Of a DNA stretch of 23,971 nucleotides, positions 1-5,526 are shown one piece after another. Source of the stretch: a virus; IMG/VR virus record IMGVR_UViG_3300037585_000005, positions 1 to 23,971 of that record, one strand, 5' to 3'. Below the pieces are notes generated by a model. The model saw only the letters and a program-made list of their open reading frames with translations. It was not told the DNA's origin and searched no databases. Position numbers and translations under genes: made by a program. Positions within the stretch are counted from its first letter, which is position 1; each line of letters begins with the position of its first letter.

Positions 1-574
1 CCCTCCCTTCTTCGCTTTGTCCGACAACTCTTCCTTCTTCCTCACTTGGTTTATCCTTAGTCCGTCCATTGACTGTGGTGTCGCCCACATTTTTTCCGAG
101 GATCCAGATTCTATCTCTTTTGTGGGGAGCTTCGACACCGCAAGCTGGAATAATAAACGATTGCGTGGCGTAACCTTCGGTTTCCAAGTCAAGACACACA
201 TCATCGAGTGCCACGTTGACGAAGCCACCAACGTTTTCGACAATGACCCAAGTGGGTTTTTTGTGCTTAATAATTTCATACATGTACGGCCAGAGGTGTC
301 TGTCGTCTTCCTTGCCTTTTTGCTTCCCGGCGAGGGAGAACGGCTGACAGGGGATGCCTCCACAGATGAGGTCGAATTCTTGAATAAGTCTTGTTGGTTC
401 ATTTCCAATCTCCTTTAGGTCTTTATATATTGGCACATCAGGCCAATGTTTGTTTAATACTTTACGACAGAACTCATCATACTCACAAAAGGCTACAGTA
501 TCAAAACCACCTGTAGCTTCTAGTCCAAGGCTGAATCCTCCTATCCCGGAACACACATCTAATATCTTAATCAT
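1..574 (-). CDS. C5-cytosine DNA methyltransferase, partial (3' end cut by window edge)
   Basis: This gene transfers a methyl group from S-adenosylmethionine to carbon 5 of cytosine in a DNA target. About 191 residues are visible, starting at the ATG at 574-572. The SAM-binding motif I (DVCSGIGGFSLGLE) lies at residues 6-19. The catalytic motif IV (GGIPCQPFS, nucleophile Cys76) is at 72-80, motif VI (ENVGG) at 113-117 and motif VIII (HKRDRIW) at 151-157. The target-recognition domain and motifs IX-X lie beyond the left edge. The start overlaps the upstream methyltransferase by 8 bp, so translation is probably coupled. Base composition is odd: positions 1-360 are about 50% GC by hand count, whereas the 5' part of the gene and its neighbours are clearly AT-richer. 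This suggests a mosaic or acquired gene. The family assignment is secure; the target sequence cannot be read from the fragment. Confidence 0.93.
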   Translation of the reverse strand, partial: MIKILDVCSGIGGFSLGLEATGGFDTVAFCEYDEFCRKVLNKHWPDVPIYKDLKEIGNEPTRLIQEFDLICGGIPCQPFSLAGKQKGKEDDRHLWPYMYEIIKHKKPTWVIVENVGGFVNVALDDVCLDLETEGYATQSFIIPACGVEAPHKRDRIWILGKNVGDTTVNGRTKDKPSEEEGRVVGQSEEGR

Positions 575-1523
575 CTTTAATCTCAATCTTATTAAAAAGA
601 TCAGTGCCAACACCTAATCTTTTCTTTGCTATCTCTATGTATTCCTCGTTAATTTCAATCAATACAGCATCTCTATTATGTCCATTGGCTACTAAAGCCG
701 TAGTTCCACTACCACCAAAGGGATCTAAAACCGTACCACCTTCAGGACAACCTGCTAACACGCATGGCTCTATTAAATCCATAGGGAAGGTTGCAAAGTG
801 TGCTCCTTTAAATGGTTTGGTGGTGACTGTCCAAACTGAGCGTTTGTTTGCACCTTTAATTTCTTTATAATTTCTTTTTTCCATATTATGTTTATTTTTC
901 CCGCCTAAAGCTCCTTGTGCGGTTCTTGCCCTAGCCATAATAAATCCTTTATTAGATTCTTTTATTGGCTCTCTAATAGATTCCATATCGCAATAATATT
1001 TACGACTCTTACTCAATAAAAATATATATTCATGTGCTTTTGTGCATCTATCTTTAACACTTTCTGGCATGGGATTAGGCTTGTGCCAAATAATATCCTG
1101 TCTTAAATACCAACCATCAGCTTGTAAGGCAAACGCTACTCGCCAAGGTATTCCAACTAAATTTTTAGGTGGTAAATTTGTTTTTACTTCAATATTTCCT
1201 TGTCTTTCTTGAAGTTCTTTTCTTCTGCTTACAACGTAACCTTCTTTTGAATTTGCGTTAAATCCTTTGCCTTTTTGTTGTCCGTAACTATCACCAAGAT
1301 TTAACCAAACTGTGCCATCATCTCGCAACACTCGTTTTACTTCTCTAAACACTTCAACTAAGTTATTAACAAATTCTTCAGGTGTTTCTTCTAAACCTAA
1401 CTGTTTGCCTTCGCCATAGTCTCTCAACCCCCAATAAGGCGGAGAGGTAATACAAGTATTAATAGATTGATCTTCTAGATCTTTAAGTCTGTCTAAACAA
1501 CTACCATGTAATATCTTAATCAT
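567..1523 (-). CDS. Site-specific DNA methyltransferase, SPPY type (N4-cytosine or N6-adenine)
   Basis: This is an amino-methyltransferase of the beta-class order, with the catalytic motif near the N-terminus and the SAM-binding motif near the C-terminus. The catalytic motif SPPYWGLRDYG starts at residue 27, and DPFGGSGTT is at about residues 267-275 of 318. SPPY is more typical of N4-cytosine enzymes than the DPPY/DPPW of N6-adenine enzymes, but the target base cannot be settled from sequence alone. The reading frame is open further upstream (to 1574), but I chose the ATG at 1523-1521. It overlaps the preceding stop by 8 bp and starts with MIKIL, as the next gene does; the extra upstream residues would only duplicate coding sequence of the neighbour. 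No restriction endonuclease gene is adjacent, so it is probably an orphan, anti-restriction methyltransferase. Confidence 0.9.
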   Translation of the reverse strand: MIKILHGSCLDRLKDLEDQSINTCITSPPYWGLRDYGEGKQLGLEETPEEFVNNLVEVFREVKRVLRDDGTVWLNLGDSYGQQKGKGFNANSKEGYVVSRRKELQERQGNIEVKTNLPPKNLVGIPWRVAFALQADGWYLRQDIIWHKPNPMPESVKDRCTKAHEYIFLLSKSRKYYCDMESIREPIKESNKGFIMARARTAQGALGGKNKHNMEKRNYKEIKGANKRSVWTVTTKPFKGAHFATFPMDLIEPCVLAGCPEGGTVLDPFGGSGTTALVANGHNRDAVLIEINEEYIEIAKKRLGVGTDLFNKIEIKDD

Positions 1524-2070
1524 CACTAACCTCATTACCCCATACATCCCAACCATCTCTTTCATTTCTAGCAAACATTTCTAAATAATTATCAGGCGAC
1601 ATATCTTCTACCAAATCAAAAAATTCTTGTGGTTTTGTTGAGTGTGGTTTTTGACTAGGGCAAATTATATGATTAAGTTTTGCCATACTTTTAAACTTCT
1701 GCATTGGTTTTTTGTAAAAGCCTAATAAGCAAAATTCTGTAGCAAACTTATATCCAAAACAAGGCATCATGCCATTTGGTTTATTCCAAACCATAGTTAA
1801 ATGATAATTAACATCCCAAGACTTTAATACATCAAAGGTATGTGGAAGCATTTTATTAGTAGTCCAAGTGTAAACATGACAACCTAAATTTGCTATATCT
1901 CCTATTGGTAATGCCTTTATTTCTTCAATAGTCATTGTTGGATAATCTAATTTTGTTTTTCTGTTTTTTCTTGTTTTAACCAAACCTGTCATTGATATAT
2001 CCCAAGGCGGATCAAGAACTATTGTGTTATATTTTTTGTTTGGTAGTTGAATGTCTATGTTGTTACTCAT
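1516..2070 (-). CDS. MT-A70 family adenine methyltransferase (third tandem copy)
   Basis: A 184-aa protein of the MT-A70 family (N6-adenine methyltransferases). The catalytic motif DPPW is at residues 20-23, preceded by the LPNKKY segment shared with its two upstream paralogues. A degenerate HSTKP motif and a YLEMFAR segment near the C-terminus correspond to HSQKP and RIELFAR in the paralogues. It ends in DGWDVWGNEVSDD. It is the most divergent of the three copies: the segment after DPPW differs and one of the shared motifs is changed, so its target may differ. The ATG at 2070 overlaps the upstream TGA by 4 bp. The product presumably methylates phage DNA; no restriction partner is seen. Confidence 0.88.
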   Translation of the reverse strand: MSNNIDIQLPNKKYNTIVLDPPWDISMTGLVKTRKNRKTKLDYPTMTIEEIKALPIGDIANLGCHVYTWTTNKMLPHTFDVLKSWDVNYHLTMVWNKPNGMMPCFGYKFATEFCLLGFYKKPMQKFKSMAKLNHIICPSQKPHSTKPQEFFDLVEDMSPDNYLEMFARNERDGWDVWGNEVSDD

Positions 2071-2600
2071 ACTTCGTTACCCCAACTATCCCAGCCTTCT
2101 GCTCTCTGCCTAGCGAATAGTTCTATGCGTGGAAGATCACCGCTTGAGTTTACAATTAAATCTCTTGTGCTACTTGGTTTTTGGCTATGCAACCTTGGGT
2201 TGACTTCCATAAACATATTTTTGGTTGTTTTATTAGTACACTTCATTTTTCCTTTTACACCAAAAATAATATGTTCGGTGCAACCTCTAAAGTAATAACC
2301 CATACCCATTTCAGGTGTTCCGTCTTTGTAGGTCTTTATCCATGTCAATAGGGTTTTATATTCAAACCCCCATGACTCGCAGACTTCTAAACCTTCTTTA
2401 ATAAACGGATTAGTAACCCATAAATATAGATGTGCTTTATCTTCTGCTATGTCTGCTACAGGCATATTTTTTATATCTTTATTGGTCATGGTGGGATAGG
2501 TGTGTTCATTGCTACCATTTCCCCAACTCTCCTTGTACTTCCAAGGTGGATCAGCATAAATAATACTGTACTTCTTATTAGGTAATTTAATCAACTTCAT
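2067..2600 (-). CDS. MT-A70 family adenine methyltransferase (second tandem copy)
   Basis: A 177-aa MT-A70 family protein with ADPPW at about residues 16-20 (the catalytic DPPW of N6-adenine methyltransferases), a PRLHSQKP motif, a PRIELFAR segment and a terminal GWDSWGNEV. I chose the ATG at 2600-2598, giving MKLIKLPNKKY, rather than an upstream in-frame start at 2621, because its N-terminus then aligns with both paralogues. The chosen start overlaps the upstream gene by 14 bp. The GGGG within the upstream gene's conserved WGNEV codons lies just ahead, so translation is probably coupled. Inferred role: methylation of phage DNA to evade host restriction. Confidence 0.9.
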   Translation of the reverse strand: MKLIKLPNKKYSIIYADPPWKYKESWGNGSNEHTYPTMTNKDIKNMPVADIAEDKAHLYLWVTNPFIKEGLEVCESWGFEYKTLLTWIKTYKDGTPEMGMGYYFRGCTEHIIFGVKGKMKCTNKTTKNMFMEVNPRLHSQKPSSTRDLIVNSSGDLPRIELFARQRAEGWDSWGNEV

Positions 2601-3129
2601 TACCCCAACTATCCCAACCATCTACTGTTTCTCTTGCGAACAGTTCTATGCGTGGTAGGTCTCCAACCAGTTCTACAATTTTATCTCTTACTACATCTGG
2701 TTTTTGTGAGTGTTTTCTTATTCTATCGTCAACTATTTGATGTACTGATTTTGATACCCTTTTGGGTTTACCTTTAGTTGCCAATAAACATATCTCATTA
2801 TTCGCTCTGGTCCAATGTCCTAATCCCCAAAACCAACTGTTAGCTTTCTTGTTTCTTTTTACCCAACTAAATCCACAAGTCTTGTAAGTAAATCCCCATT
2901 CTTCTATTGTTTCCAACCCTTCTTTTAATAAAGGATATGTAACCCACAATAAAAGAACACAATTATCATCTGCAATATCTTGTACTGGTAAATTATATAT
3001 ATCTTCTATATCCATACAGTCATAATGATTTTCAGCAGATTTTTTTTCTTTACCCTTGCCTGACCAAACTTTATAAGTCCAAGGCGGATCAGCATAGATA
3101 ATGTTGTATTTTTTATTTGGAAGAGTCAT
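2587..3129 (-). CDS. MT-A70 family adenine methyltransferase (first tandem copy)
   Basis: A 180-aa MT-A70 family N6-adenine methyltransferase. ADPPW is at residues 13-17 after LPNKKYNIIY; a KHSQKP motif, a PRIELFAR segment and a terminal GWDSWGNEVD follow. It resembles the downstream copy most closely in its N- and C-terminal motifs, but the middle third (after HYDCMD) is clearly different. That is the part likely to decide specificity. The ATG at 3129 overlaps the end of the primase-helicase gene by 17 bp. It is preceded by GGGGTAAAA, a plausible ribosome binding site. The family call is secure; the methylated sequence is unknown. Confidence 0.9.
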   Translation of the reverse strand: MTLPNKKYNIIYADPPWTYKVWSGKGKEKKSAENHYDCMDIEDIYNLPVQDIADDNCVLLLWVTYPLLKEGLETIEEWGFTYKTCGFSWVKRNKKANSWFWGLGHWTRANNEICLLATKGKPKRVSKSVHQIVDDRIRKHSQKPDVVRDKIVELVGDLPRIELFARETVDGWDSWGNEVD

Positions 3130-5134
3130 TTTTACCCCAAGGTTTCTCCATTTGATTATCTTCTAAGTAATACCAAGTGTTCTTGCCTGGTACGCTATGT
3201 GTTTTTACCTTATCTCCAAGATACTTTTGAACATGTGATACACCATATCTTGCTGCTCTTTCTCCTGAAGCTAAGTCTTTCTCTTTCAATGCAGTTCTAG
3301 CCAGTAGCTCTAGGTCTTGCCTTGTATAGAACTTATACGAACTCATTGCTCCAGCTATGACTCTAGCTATCTCTACTTCATCAGGACTGTCTTGTGCATC
3401 CACAATCCTGAAGAAGCCACGTTCAAAGTCAAAGTAAGCTAGATGTTGATCAGGTTCTCTTGCATTTCTTGCTTCGTAGAACAATGAAACGTTAGGCTTT
3501 GTACCTGACAGCTTGATACCTGAATCCATCCAACCAGCAAAGGCACTACCACCACGAGCTGACATGAACGACAGATCGTCTGCCCTTTCTTTACCTGTGT
3601 GATGAGCAATGATGACTGCTACTTTGAATAAATCTATTAACTTATCTATCCTAGATAACATCTCATGAATCTCTGAGTTAGAGTTTTCTTCACCACTAAA
3701 GAAGTTAATAATAGGATCAATCATTAATAGGTCAGGCTTATGATACTCAATACTTTCTGCTATAGCATCCATATCACTGTCCCTCATAATGTTTTTTCTA
3801 AGTCTGCCTGATGCTATCAGGTTTGACTTGCCCAAGTTATATAGTTCTGGGTCATGATGAAAAGGTTTGTAATACATTTCTATTCTCTTCTTTAAGAACT
3901 CATGAATAATCTCTGCCTGTAGCCACATGACTTTAAGAGGTCTAGAGAATTGTGTTCCCATAAACTCTGTGCCTGTCGTGGCAGATGCAGCAAATGCCCC
4001 TAACCAATGAGACTTACCTATCTTTGGCTTACCTAACAATAAGACTCTTGATTGTTCAAATATAAATGCATCTCCCCAAAACTGTTCGATGCGACTTGAG
4101 TCCATCGTATCCCAGAAAGGATCATTAAAAGGTTTCAAACCTAATGGATCTCTTTCAACTGTTGTTTTTTTCTTTTGCTGATCAATAGGATCTTCTTGAT
4201 CCATGATCTCTTTAAGTTCATCTGATAAAGGTATTTGCCATTGACTTGTGTTCCATTTAAGTATGCCTACATCAGTATGATCCTGGTTTCTTTTTAAATG
4301 GCCTGTGCAAATACTATTGGTTGTATGCAATACCTCTTGCACACTCATAGGTGGGTTGTTGGTTTGATTCCAATCTAATGCTTTGATAAGAACTTCACGC
4401 ATTCCCCAGCCTTCCAAGATCCACTTGCCTACCAATCTTGCAAGCGTGTCATTACGCATTCCAGATTGCACACCATCTAGGGATAAAGGTGTCTTGCTAT
4501 CTAAAATAATCTTTCCATCATTATTAAAGTCATAGATAACATTCATGTCTTGACTGTTAAGAATTGGAAGATCGTCTATTGAATCTATAATCATGTTATC
4601 AACTGTTTCAAACATATACTTATTAGAAGGACTGACCATGACATAGCCACCCTCTCCTCTAATATCTAATCGTCCTGTTGTATTTCGTATCGTAAGATTT
4701 GGATTGATTGCGTAGAAGTAATGATAGCCACCACGAGGAGTCTTTTGTTTGAGTGTAGTCCTTGTGATCTTTCCAGATTCTACAAAGTCACAAGCTTCTT
4801 GTGAGTCTGCATCTAATACAACAAAGGTAATGCCTGTTACCACTGCCCAATTGCATTTAGGAAATTGTTTATACCAATTCCCTATATCGTTTTTGCTAGG
4901 TTGATTTGTAATGTAGTCAGACCATTTGACTCTTGGTGTCTTGGACCATCGCTTTATTAAAACATCTTCTTCTTCGTTGGGATGTCTTGCTTTAAAGTAA
5001 TCTGGGATTACATCGTCTCGTGAGCCACAAGGTATTAGATGAAAGTTGTTTTCATAATATGAAGCCAACATATCTTTTCGTGACCTATCATCGATCTCGT
5101 CTCCAACAAGATTGAATTGTAAATCGAGAGACAT
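3113..5134 (-). CDS. Primase-helicase: PrimPol domain fused to RecA-like (RepA-type) ATPase
   Basis: A 673-aa replication protein. The N-terminal third looks like a bifunctional primase/polymerase domain of the archaeo-eukaryotic primase superfamily. The visible signs are NWAVVTG followed by VVLDADS (acidic metal-binding pair), then PRGGYHYFY, IRNTTGRLDIRGEGGYV and PSNKY. The second half is a RecA/RepA-like ATPase with Walker A GKPKIGKS at residues 368-375, Walker B LLMIDPI near 472 and AHHTGK after it. The C-terminal tail may be a winged-helix region. The protein most likely primes and unwinds DNA at the phage origin. It starts 1 bp after the repressor stop, with GAGGGG just upstream as ribosome binding site. 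No separate DNA polymerase is in the window, so synthesis may rely on a host enzyme or one encoded elsewhere. Confidence 0.87.
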   Translation of the reverse strand: MSLDLQFNLVGDEIDDRSRKDMLASYYENNFHLIPCGSRDDVIPDYFKARHPNEEEDVLIKRWSKTPRVKWSDYITNQPSKNDIGNWYKQFPKCNWAVVTGITFVVLDADSQEACDFVESGKITRTTLKQKTPRGGYHYFYAINPNLTIRNTTGRLDIRGEGGYVMVSPSNKYMFETVDNMIIDSIDDLPILNSQDMNVIYDFNNDGKIILDSKTPLSLDGVQSGMRNDTLARLVGKWILEGWGMREVLIKALDWNQTNNPPMSVQEVLHTTNSICTGHLKRNQDHTDVGILKWNTSQWQIPLSDELKEIMDQEDPIDQQKKKTTVERDPLGLKPFNDPFWDTMDSSRIEQFWGDAFIFEQSRVLLLGKPKIGKSHWLGAFAASATTGTEFMGTQFSRPLKVMWLQAEIIHEFLKKRIEMYYKPFHHDPELYNLGKSNLIASGRLRKNIMRDSDMDAIAESIEYHKPDLLMIDPIINFFSGEENSNSEIHEMLSRIDKLIDLFKVAVIIAHHTGKERADDLSFMSARGGSAFAGWMDSGIKLSGTKPNVSLFYEARNAREPDQHLAYFDFERGFFRIVDAQDSPDEVEIARVIAGAMSSYKFYTRQDLELLARTALKEKDLASGERAARYGVSHVQKYLGDKVKTHSVPGKNTWYYLEDNQMEKPWGKNDSSK

Positions 5135-5135
5135 A

Positions 5136-5327
5136 CTACCCCTCTATAGATCCATAGATGCCTTCCCAATCCAAAGCATGCCCGGTTAACTTAATAAGTT
5201 TCTTTGCCTGATTTACAGAGGGTTGCCTATTGCCATACCTCCAAGACTTGATTGTATCAACAGATACACCTAGCTCTTTAGCTAAAGGTTCTTCACCCCT
5301 CTTTTCTATATAATCTTTTAAATTCAT
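5136..5327 (-). CDS. Cro/YdaS-like helix-turn-helix repressor
   Basis: A 63-aa DNA-binding protein. The helix-turn-helix covers about residues 13-34: EPLAKELGVS, then VDTIKSWRYGNRQPS, the classic pattern of Cro/CI-type and YdaS-like regulators. It is first in the leftward operon and borders the only intergenic control region of the window, which carries inverted repeats. This is the expected position for an autoregulating early repressor. A strong AGGAG lies just ahead of the ATG. The small size, without an oligomerisation or cleavage domain, argues for a Cro-type regulator rather than a CI-type lysogeny repressor. No CI-like partner or integrase is visible here. Confidence 0.82.
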   Translation of the reverse strand: MNLKDYIEKRGEEPLAKELGVSVDTIKSWRYGNRQPSVNQAKKLIKLTGHALDWEGIYGSIEG

Positions 5328-5349
5328 GTCTCTCCTGTTTTAATAAAGT

Positions 5350-5411
5350 GACACGCTTCAAGTTTATGTGGATACTTTGTCTAGGGTGGCAAAGTATTTT
5401 TGAAACGTGTC
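5350..5411. promoter_or_regulatory. Nested inverted repeats, candidate repressor operators
   Basis: The outer arms are GACACGCTTCAA (5350-5361) and TTGAAACGTGTC (5400-5411), complementary at 11 of 12 positions. Inside them is a perfect 8-bp inverted repeat, ATACTTTG (5372-5379) and CAAAGTAT (5390-5397), with a 10-bp spacer. The arms are not placed symmetrically, which fits separate protein-binding sites better than a single hairpin. The site lies directly upstream of the helix-turn-helix gene in the divergent control region, so it is a likely operator for that protein. This is inference from position and symmetry. Confidence 0.6.
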
Positions 5412-5442
5412 GTGCTTTCCACAAAGCTTCTTTATAATAATT

Positions 5443-5466
5443 CTTTACTGACAAATTGTAAAGTAT
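5443..5466. promoter_or_regulatory. Inverted repeat with third AAAGTAT copy, next to the rightward -35 box
   Basis: CTTTAC (5443-5448) and GTAAAG (5458-5463) form a 6-bp inverted repeat with a 9-bp spacer. AAAGTAT at 5460-5466 repeats the core of the inner inverted repeat at 5372-5397. It ends 4 bp before the TTGACA at 5471. A protein bound here would cover the rightward promoter. Candidate operator, inferred. Confidence 0.45.
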
Positions 5467-5470
5467 TCTC

Positions 5471-5501
5471 TTGACAACAAATTTAATATCATTAATATAA
5501 A
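5471..5501 (+). promoter_or_regulatory. Sigma70-like promoter of the rightward early operon
   Basis: A perfect -35 box TTGACA is at 5471-5476. A -10 candidate TAATAT is at 5493-5498 (16-bp spacer), and an overlapping TATAAA at 5496-5501 would give 19 bp. The first rightward gene starts at 5527 behind GGAG. No equally good promoter was found for the leftward operon. Confidence 0.65.
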
Positions 5502-5526
5502 GGTATTAAAAGTTTGGAGACTGATA

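Follow-up and report, generated by a model that had tools for sequence, protein, structure and literature searches.

A strand-specific leader hairpin and a predicted single operator in the divergent control region of a PrimPol-encoding virus

The gap between the two divergent operons of the virus studied here (positions 5328-5526 of the window, which is the whole 23,971-base virus record IMGVR_UViG_3300037585_000005) appears to carry two layers of early control, a single predicted operator at the repressor's own promoter and an RNA hairpin with which the leftward message is predicted to begin. Our best reading is a divergent promoter pair under autorepression, with the 5' end of the leftward mRNA sequestered. 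We give it a probability of about 0.55, a joint figure for both layers that also takes in the assignment of the record to a PrimPol-encoding phage related to CRP-901, with 5328-5526 as its divergent early control region. A preliminary description of the same DNA had instead taken the nested inverted repeats and three AAAGTAT words found here as the operators of a compact genetic switch.

The leftward operon opens with a gene for a 63-aa helix-turn-helix (HTH) protein followed by one for a PrimPol-AAA primase/helicase, and the rightward operon encodes, in order, a 150-aa protein of no known family, a small ORF, a Sak4-like ATPase, a DUF669/SSB-like protein, a helicase, and a Cas4-like nuclease (Table 1). 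The 150-aa protein had no match in Pfam or PHROG, and a structure search with its model returned no fold match at E below 0.6; it is conserved in relatives at 45-85% identity. Five consecutive leftward ORFs at positions 1-3129 resemble DNA methyltransferases when judged by eye (a C5 type, one dam-like, and three that carry DPPW motifs and are about 180 aa long). Within a leftward methyltransferase gene, 146 bases at 1015-1160 are 84-86% identical to dam of the T4-like cyanophages S-TIM4 and P-RSM4. This stretch, the sole megablast match of the window to the phage collection, points to an exchange of genes between phages that are only distantly related.

Table 1. Predicted features of the control region and the adjoining genes
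Feature	Position	Strand	Basis
PrimPol-AAA primase/helicase, leftward operon gene 2	3113-5134	-	Pfam Prim-Pol, PriCT_1, AAA_25
63-aa Cro/YdaS-like HTH repressor, leftward operon gene 1	5136-5327	-	Pfam HTH_3, E 3e-5; AlphaFold pLDDT 91; Foldseek
Repressor ribosome-binding site AGGAGA	5331-5336	-	Sequence; stretch conserved in alignment of relatives
Leftward mRNA leader hairpin, outer stem 5400-5411 with 5350-5361	5350-5411	-	Fold z, covariation, G.U strand bias
Inner stem of leader hairpin, 8 bp, C-rich loop CCACCCUAGA	5372-5397	-	Repeat search, folding
Extra small hairpin GCUUU-GUGG-AAAGC at predicted leftward +1	5414-5427	-	Folding; position
Leftward -10, TATTAT	5434-5439	-	Consensus scan; T-A-n-n-A-T retained across 63 unique regions
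Predicted repressor operator, dyad TTTAC-N5-GTAAA	5448-5462		Dyad search with shuffled controls; fixed position in relatives
Leftward -35, TTTACA, overlapping one operator half	5457-5462	-	Consensus scan; spacing in relatives
Rightward promoter, TTGACA-16-TAATAT	5471-5498	+	Consensus scan; relatives
Rightward operon gene 1, 150 aa	5527-5979	+	Model pLDDT 81

Relatives were drawn from IMG/VR in five scans of viral contigs with the repressor, the first rightward gene, and the primase. The repressor was present in 328 of the 334 sequences collected, a count that is partly so by construction since many were fetched with the repressor itself. There were 111 unique upstream regions, and a requirement of at least 170 nt of upstream sequence left 104, which are sequences rather than independent lineages. 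The structure tests were run on 34 clusters at 90% identity and on a PrimPol tree of 46 rows, and conservation was read from an alignment of 63 unique regions. A scan of bacterial genomes with PrimPol found no relative and hence no prophage or host clue.

The inverted repeats of the region very probably act as RNA in the leftward transcript. An outer stem with an inner hairpin lies between the leftward -10 and the repressor gene in 80 of the 104 unique regions (one stem proposed for region L226 was discarded as false). The outer stem of the window contains 11 Watson-Crick pairs and one G.U pair, the latter being the sole mismatch of the 11/12 repeat, and the minus strand of 5345-5415 folded with a z score of -6.2, with none of 200 shuffles as stable. 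Across the 34 clusters, the median fold z was -4.95 in the mRNA sense versus -3.21 in the opposite sense, and the mRNA sense was the lower in 28 of them. The inner stem sequence was not conserved, and a C-rich loop or segment recurred in most, not all, clusters.

Pairing of the outer stem has been maintained while its sequence has changed. The arms differ by clade (GACACG..CGTGTC, GATGCGC..GCGCATC, GGTGTGAG..CTCACACC, GGTATGAG..CTCATACC, GACGCG..CGCGTC, and others), and 302 of the 305 cells of the first nine pairs were pairable in the 34 clusters, compared to a fraction of 0.776 when arms were swapped between clusters. For the whole outer stem, these clusters gave 384 Watson-Crick, 32 G.U, no A.C, and 5 other cells. 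A less strict count over 41 distinct arm pairs, one spurious region included, gave 466, 39, 1, and 10, respectively, and an initial count over 32 arm pairs gave 368, 31, 2, and 7, its A.C cells being traceable to an alternative pairing on the inner side and to an extended flank. On the PrimPol tree, G.U states required 22 changes and A.C states none, and the numbers of changes on the 5' and 3' sides of pairs 2 to 6 were 1/1, 2/2, 5/5, 3/4, and 3/5. The MAFFT alignment of leaders misplaced the inner stems, and only the outer stem was counted from it, for 16 of the 34 clusters; in these 16 aligned leaders, 8 of the 12 pairs had changed on both sides, and the covariation was 0.471, versus 0.258 when shuffled (reached in 0 of 500 shuffles) and at most 0.190 when slid. 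The outer stem thus shows compensatory base changes beyond chance, as in structured cis-regulatory RNAs. Since a G.U pair in the leftward RNA is an A.C pair on the other strand, the excess of G.U marks the leftward transcript as the strand that folds. Comparative sequence analysis showed both the predicted structure's RNA strand and its covariation. No Rfam 15 family matched the window at gathering scores, none matched at E up to 1 in 2 loci, and none matched at E up to 0.5 in 7 loci. Full-text searches of open-licence PMC papers turned up no description of a leader of this kind in the phages concerned. The leader RNA is a well-supported structured element that is apparently undescribed.

The position of the stem was examined relative to the leftward promoter, with every +1 being a prediction from the promoter consensus. 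In 79 of the 80 regions, the invariant first G-C pair falls 7 nt (68 regions) or 8 nt (11 regions) after the -10, and thus the stem begins at or beside the predicted leftward +1, where a 5'-terminal stem-loop is expected. The window is the exception, its main stem beginning 22 nt after the -10. Fifteen extra nucleotides, present only in this phage and its near-identical contig, form the additional small hairpin listed in Table 1, and the first G of this hairpin (5427) is the 7th base after the -10.

Different arrangements were found in other groups of relatives. In the MNLSEY group (contigs L268, L269, L136, L217, and L272), the repressor message is predicted to be leaderless, with the dyad 36 nt from the ATG, and all 5 distinct leaders instead have a 12-bp stem that starts 7 nt downstream of the rightward -10; the departures from Watson-Crick pairing in this stem are exclusively G.U in the rightward sense. 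Neither the MTLKEYII group nor the MNKLQ group has a leader hairpin on the repressor message. Contigs L246 and L247, inside the hairpin clade, also have none and keep the promoter and ribosome-binding site; this is evidently a natural loss within that clade. The leftward hairpin is missing from 24 of the 104 regions, among them those of the sister groups and of L246 and L247, so some relatives can do without it. The PrimPol tree does not separate gain from loss of the hairpin at the deep split.

The best-conserved block of the region, read in the sense of the repressor gene, is the dyad TTTAC-N5-GTAAA, rather than AAAGTAT, and its first half is the leftward -35 (TTTACA). The spacer between this -35 and a -10 of the form nAnnnT was 17 bp in 68 of 80 regions and 18 bp in the other 12. 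Best dyad scores in the 104 regions were 10/10 in 22, 9/10 in 26, 8/10 in 41, and 7/10 in 15, compared to shuffled fractions of 0.0, 0.027, 0.283, and 0.622 for the same scores and 0.068 for 6/10. The dyad of the window itself scored 8/10, being weak on one side (CTGAC). Scores of 7 and 8, that of the window included, are not significant alone and are supported by the fixed place of the dyad relative to the promoters in relatives, which fits an operator at the repressor's own divergent promoter. Seven regions with a best score of 8 hold another equal-scoring dyad elsewhere, such ties are more common where the best score is 7, and in region L144 the best-scoring place is not the operator. No convincing dyad was found in the MNKLQ group. 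The single dyad at 5448-5462 is most likely the operator, the putative site of the repressor.

The rightward -35 was searched for within a range limited to -8 to +45 bp and was TTGACA in every one of the 94 unique regions that do not belong to the MNKLQ group, with a promoter spacer of 16 bp in 75 and 17 bp in 19. The gap from the dyad to this -35 was 7-9 bp in 67 of the 94 and 19-20 bp in 27. These two classes differ by about one helical turn, and the PrimPol tree needs two changes between them, which is a small number of events. The preserved helix face suggests that a bound repressor might touch RNA polymerase. As with the leader, it was comparison across relatives that showed the predicted dyad and promoters, and the geometry suggests self-repression plus some effect on the rightward promoter; a two-state switch did not emerge from the comparison.

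The small repressor itself resembles those of the Cro/YdaS type. Its AlphaFold model has a five-helix fold, and the best Foldseek match of the model was the YdaS N-terminal domain (TM 0.79, with a weak E of 0.009), followed by Xfaso 1 Cro (weak E of 0.045); together with the Pfam HTH_3 match, which was above the cut-off, these results place it in the lambda-repressor-like HTH fold. The recognition-helix region is nearly invariant among the repressors of relatives, and that of the MNKLQ group differs within the helix-turn-helix, with SWYYG or SWLYG versus SWRYG elsewhere. These data bear out the earlier view that the region controls two divergent operons through one small Cro/YdaS-like HTH protein in the window. 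The accompanying statement that CI and integrase are lacking also stood: each of 12 long records, which are fragments, contained exactly one HTH_3 match, and neither tyrosine recombinase (PF00589) nor serine recombinase (PF00239) was found in the 12 records searched for each. The second repressor and integrase of a lysis-lysogeny switch were thus not found in the 12 fragment records of each search. Like Cro/YdaS-type phage repressors, the protein is small and single-domain with a five-helix fold, and its operator probably lies at its own promoter; the present system differs from theirs in that no partner repressor or recombinase was found and one predicted dyad replaces an operator array. The repressor-operator arrangement is ordinary.

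Every repeat named in the preliminary description is present in the window: the outer repeat of 11/12 (5350-5361/5400-5411), the perfect inner repeat of 8 (5372-5379/5390-5397), the CTTTAC/GTAAAG repeat (within 5439-5448/5458-5467, 9/10), AAAGTAT at 5372-5378 (-), 5391-5397 (+), and 5460-5466 (+), and a perfect TTGACA at 5471-5476 with TAATAT at 5493-5498. What did not hold was their interpretation as operators. Comparison with related phages had been proposed as a check. It showed the outer stem to be conserved as a structure, and the leftward -10, the GTAAAG on the right-hand side of the dyad, and the rightward -35 region to be conserved as sequence; the AAAGTAT copies at 5372-5378 and 5391-5397, the perfect 8-mer of the inner repeat, and the CTTTAC arm (5443-5448) were not conserved. 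The window contains 14 AAAGTAT words for an expectation of 7.7, a count reached in 4 of 100 shuffles, so the word is not special window-wide. Of the three local copies, those at 5372-5378 and 5391-5397 are not independent, since they form the two arms of the inner hairpin; the third overlaps the conserved motif. AAAGTAT was dropped as an operator word for lack of conservation. CTTTAC/GTAAAG with its 9-nt gap was also rejected as an operator, as the CTTTAC arm is not conserved and the dyad with the 5-nt gap is perfect in 22 of the 104 regions. A multi-site switch in which all of the repeats are operators of the small repressor accounts for palindromes between divergent promoters beside an HTH gene and for three AAAGTAT words in less than 100 bp, but we consider it improbable. 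The outer stem sequence shifts between clades although the recognition-helix region is nearly invariant, the stem is missing in 24 of 104 regions that retain the repressor, and the departures from Watson-Crick pairing are G.U in one strand only, never A.C, which is not expected of double-stranded DNA. Because the arms covary and depart in this one-sided way, the nested repeat is better explained as RNA than as an operator.

Of the cultured phages that share this layout, CRP-901 and CRP-902 are the nearest. In these, as here, the leftward genes are an HTH gene and then PrimPol, with a methyltransferase further on, the rightward genes encode a hypothetical protein, an ATP-binding protein, and DUF669, and a virion protein is related at 38-39% identity. 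Their control regions contain CTTTACAG and CTGTAAA as inverted arms between the divergent genes (L342:5731-5852 and L344:3092-3201) that resemble the half-sites described here, but the arms are 13 nt apart rather than 5 nt. CRP-901 and CRP-902 have a PrimPol without a significant BLASTP match and an HTH protein only 33% identical over 43 aa; no comparable leader hairpin was seen in them, and the gap in CRP-901 is only 122 bp. No lysogeny genes are reported for CRP-901 and CRP-902 in the paper that describes them (PMC10149686).

We propose that a dimer of the 63-aa HTH protein would bind the one 15-bp dyad and that, because half of this dyad is the leftward -35, the accumulating protein would shut off the repressor-primase-methyltransferase operon. 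Bound on a fixed helix face upstream of the rightward promoter, the same dimer could contact RNA polymerase, and this contact could activate transcription to the right or tune it, with the direction of any such influence conjectural. The leftward mRNA would begin at the base of the long hairpin formed by the nested repeats, and its paired 5' end would most likely shield it from 5'-end-dependent decay of the RppH/RNase E type, giving a durable repressor and primase message from an autorepressed promoter. RppH and RNase E are described as both relying on single-stranded 5' ends (PMC3997798), so a fixed stem start at +1 is what is expected of a stem that hides the 5' end from them. The 5'-terminal stem-loops of ompA and papA of E. 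coli are cited in the same paper as stabilising bacterial mRNAs. As is predicted for the leader here, they begin within 0-2 bases of the transcript start and lie upstream of the ribosome-binding site. The present leader differs in being larger, with an internal hairpin and a C-rich loop, in lying on a phage early operon and covarying across a wide lineage, and in that its protective effect is a prediction.

The +1 position alone does not establish protection, and other functions of the leader are possible. We rank 5'-end protection by itself first, at somewhat under even odds, and translational or protein-binding control second. These odds, like the high probability given above to the repeats acting as leftward RNA, are a matter of judgement rather than calculation. 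The recurrent C-rich elements inside the hairpin exceed the needs of a pure shield and argue for something more; the C-rich loop, together with the CCUCCUU segment of many relatives, may add translational or protein-binding control to protection. Taken as the main function, such control, in which C-rich or CCUCCUU sequences pair with the AGGAG of the repressor or a protein (the repressor, PrimPol, or a host factor) binds the hairpin, is a tentative alternative for which the autogenous translational operators of T4 and RB69 and the lambda N leader are models. Many leaders have CCUCCUU in their single-stranded 3' part and could form duplexes of about -7.6 to -11.6 kcal/mol, given that every ribosome-binding site shown contains AGGAG. 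In 23 of the 34 clusters, the native segments pair better with the Shine-Dalgarno (SD) region than shuffled segments do. Native pairs were, however, no stronger than swapped ones (-6.9 versus -6.96 kcal/mol, permutation p 0.61), CCUCC is absent from several clusters and from the window, where the duplex reaches -3.4, and nothing in such control requires the stem to start at +1. Anti-SD pairing within the leader was rejected as a candidate, there being no co-adaptation over the 34 clusters.

Two further alternatives were weighed against 5'-end protection. It is unlikely that the hairpin works at the DNA level, for instance as a site in single-stranded DNA for a primase or an origin. The PrimPol gene adjoins it, some plasmids of the RSF1010 type have PrimPol-type primases that act at hairpins, and single-stranded DNA of the minus strand would likewise favour G.T over A.C. 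Against this, 79 of 80 regions have the stem in register with the leftward promoter, the stem of the sister group is on the other strand and registered to the rightward promoter, thereby tracking transcripts rather than an origin, and L246 and L247 have PrimPol without the hairpin; GC skew, suggested earlier as a check for an origin in this region, follows gene strand only and speaks neither for nor against the earlier idea that the region holds the origin. We regard as very unlikely an antitermination element acting on RNA polymerase, for which HK022 put is the model: the leader does stand at the start of a long early operon, but no terminator is known downstream, and the stem and most loop sequences are less conserved than an RNA that binds polymerase would be expected to need.

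For palindromes found beside a phage repressor gene, the present results mean that strand-specific G.U covariation should be tested before they are called operators. A broader possibility, offered speculatively and as a whole, is that a widespread uncultured lineage of PrimPol phages employs early control by RNA and repressor together, in which a helix-phased single operator is combined with a mobile "+1 hairpin", a covarying RNA structure anchored at the base where transcription starts, whose C-rich loop binds a regulator; one group would carry the hairpin on its repressor-primase message, and the sister group with the leaderless repressor would carry it on the opposite operon. If our best reading is true, a sealed 5' end on the message would let these phages keep the replication operon productive even as its promoter is under autorepression.
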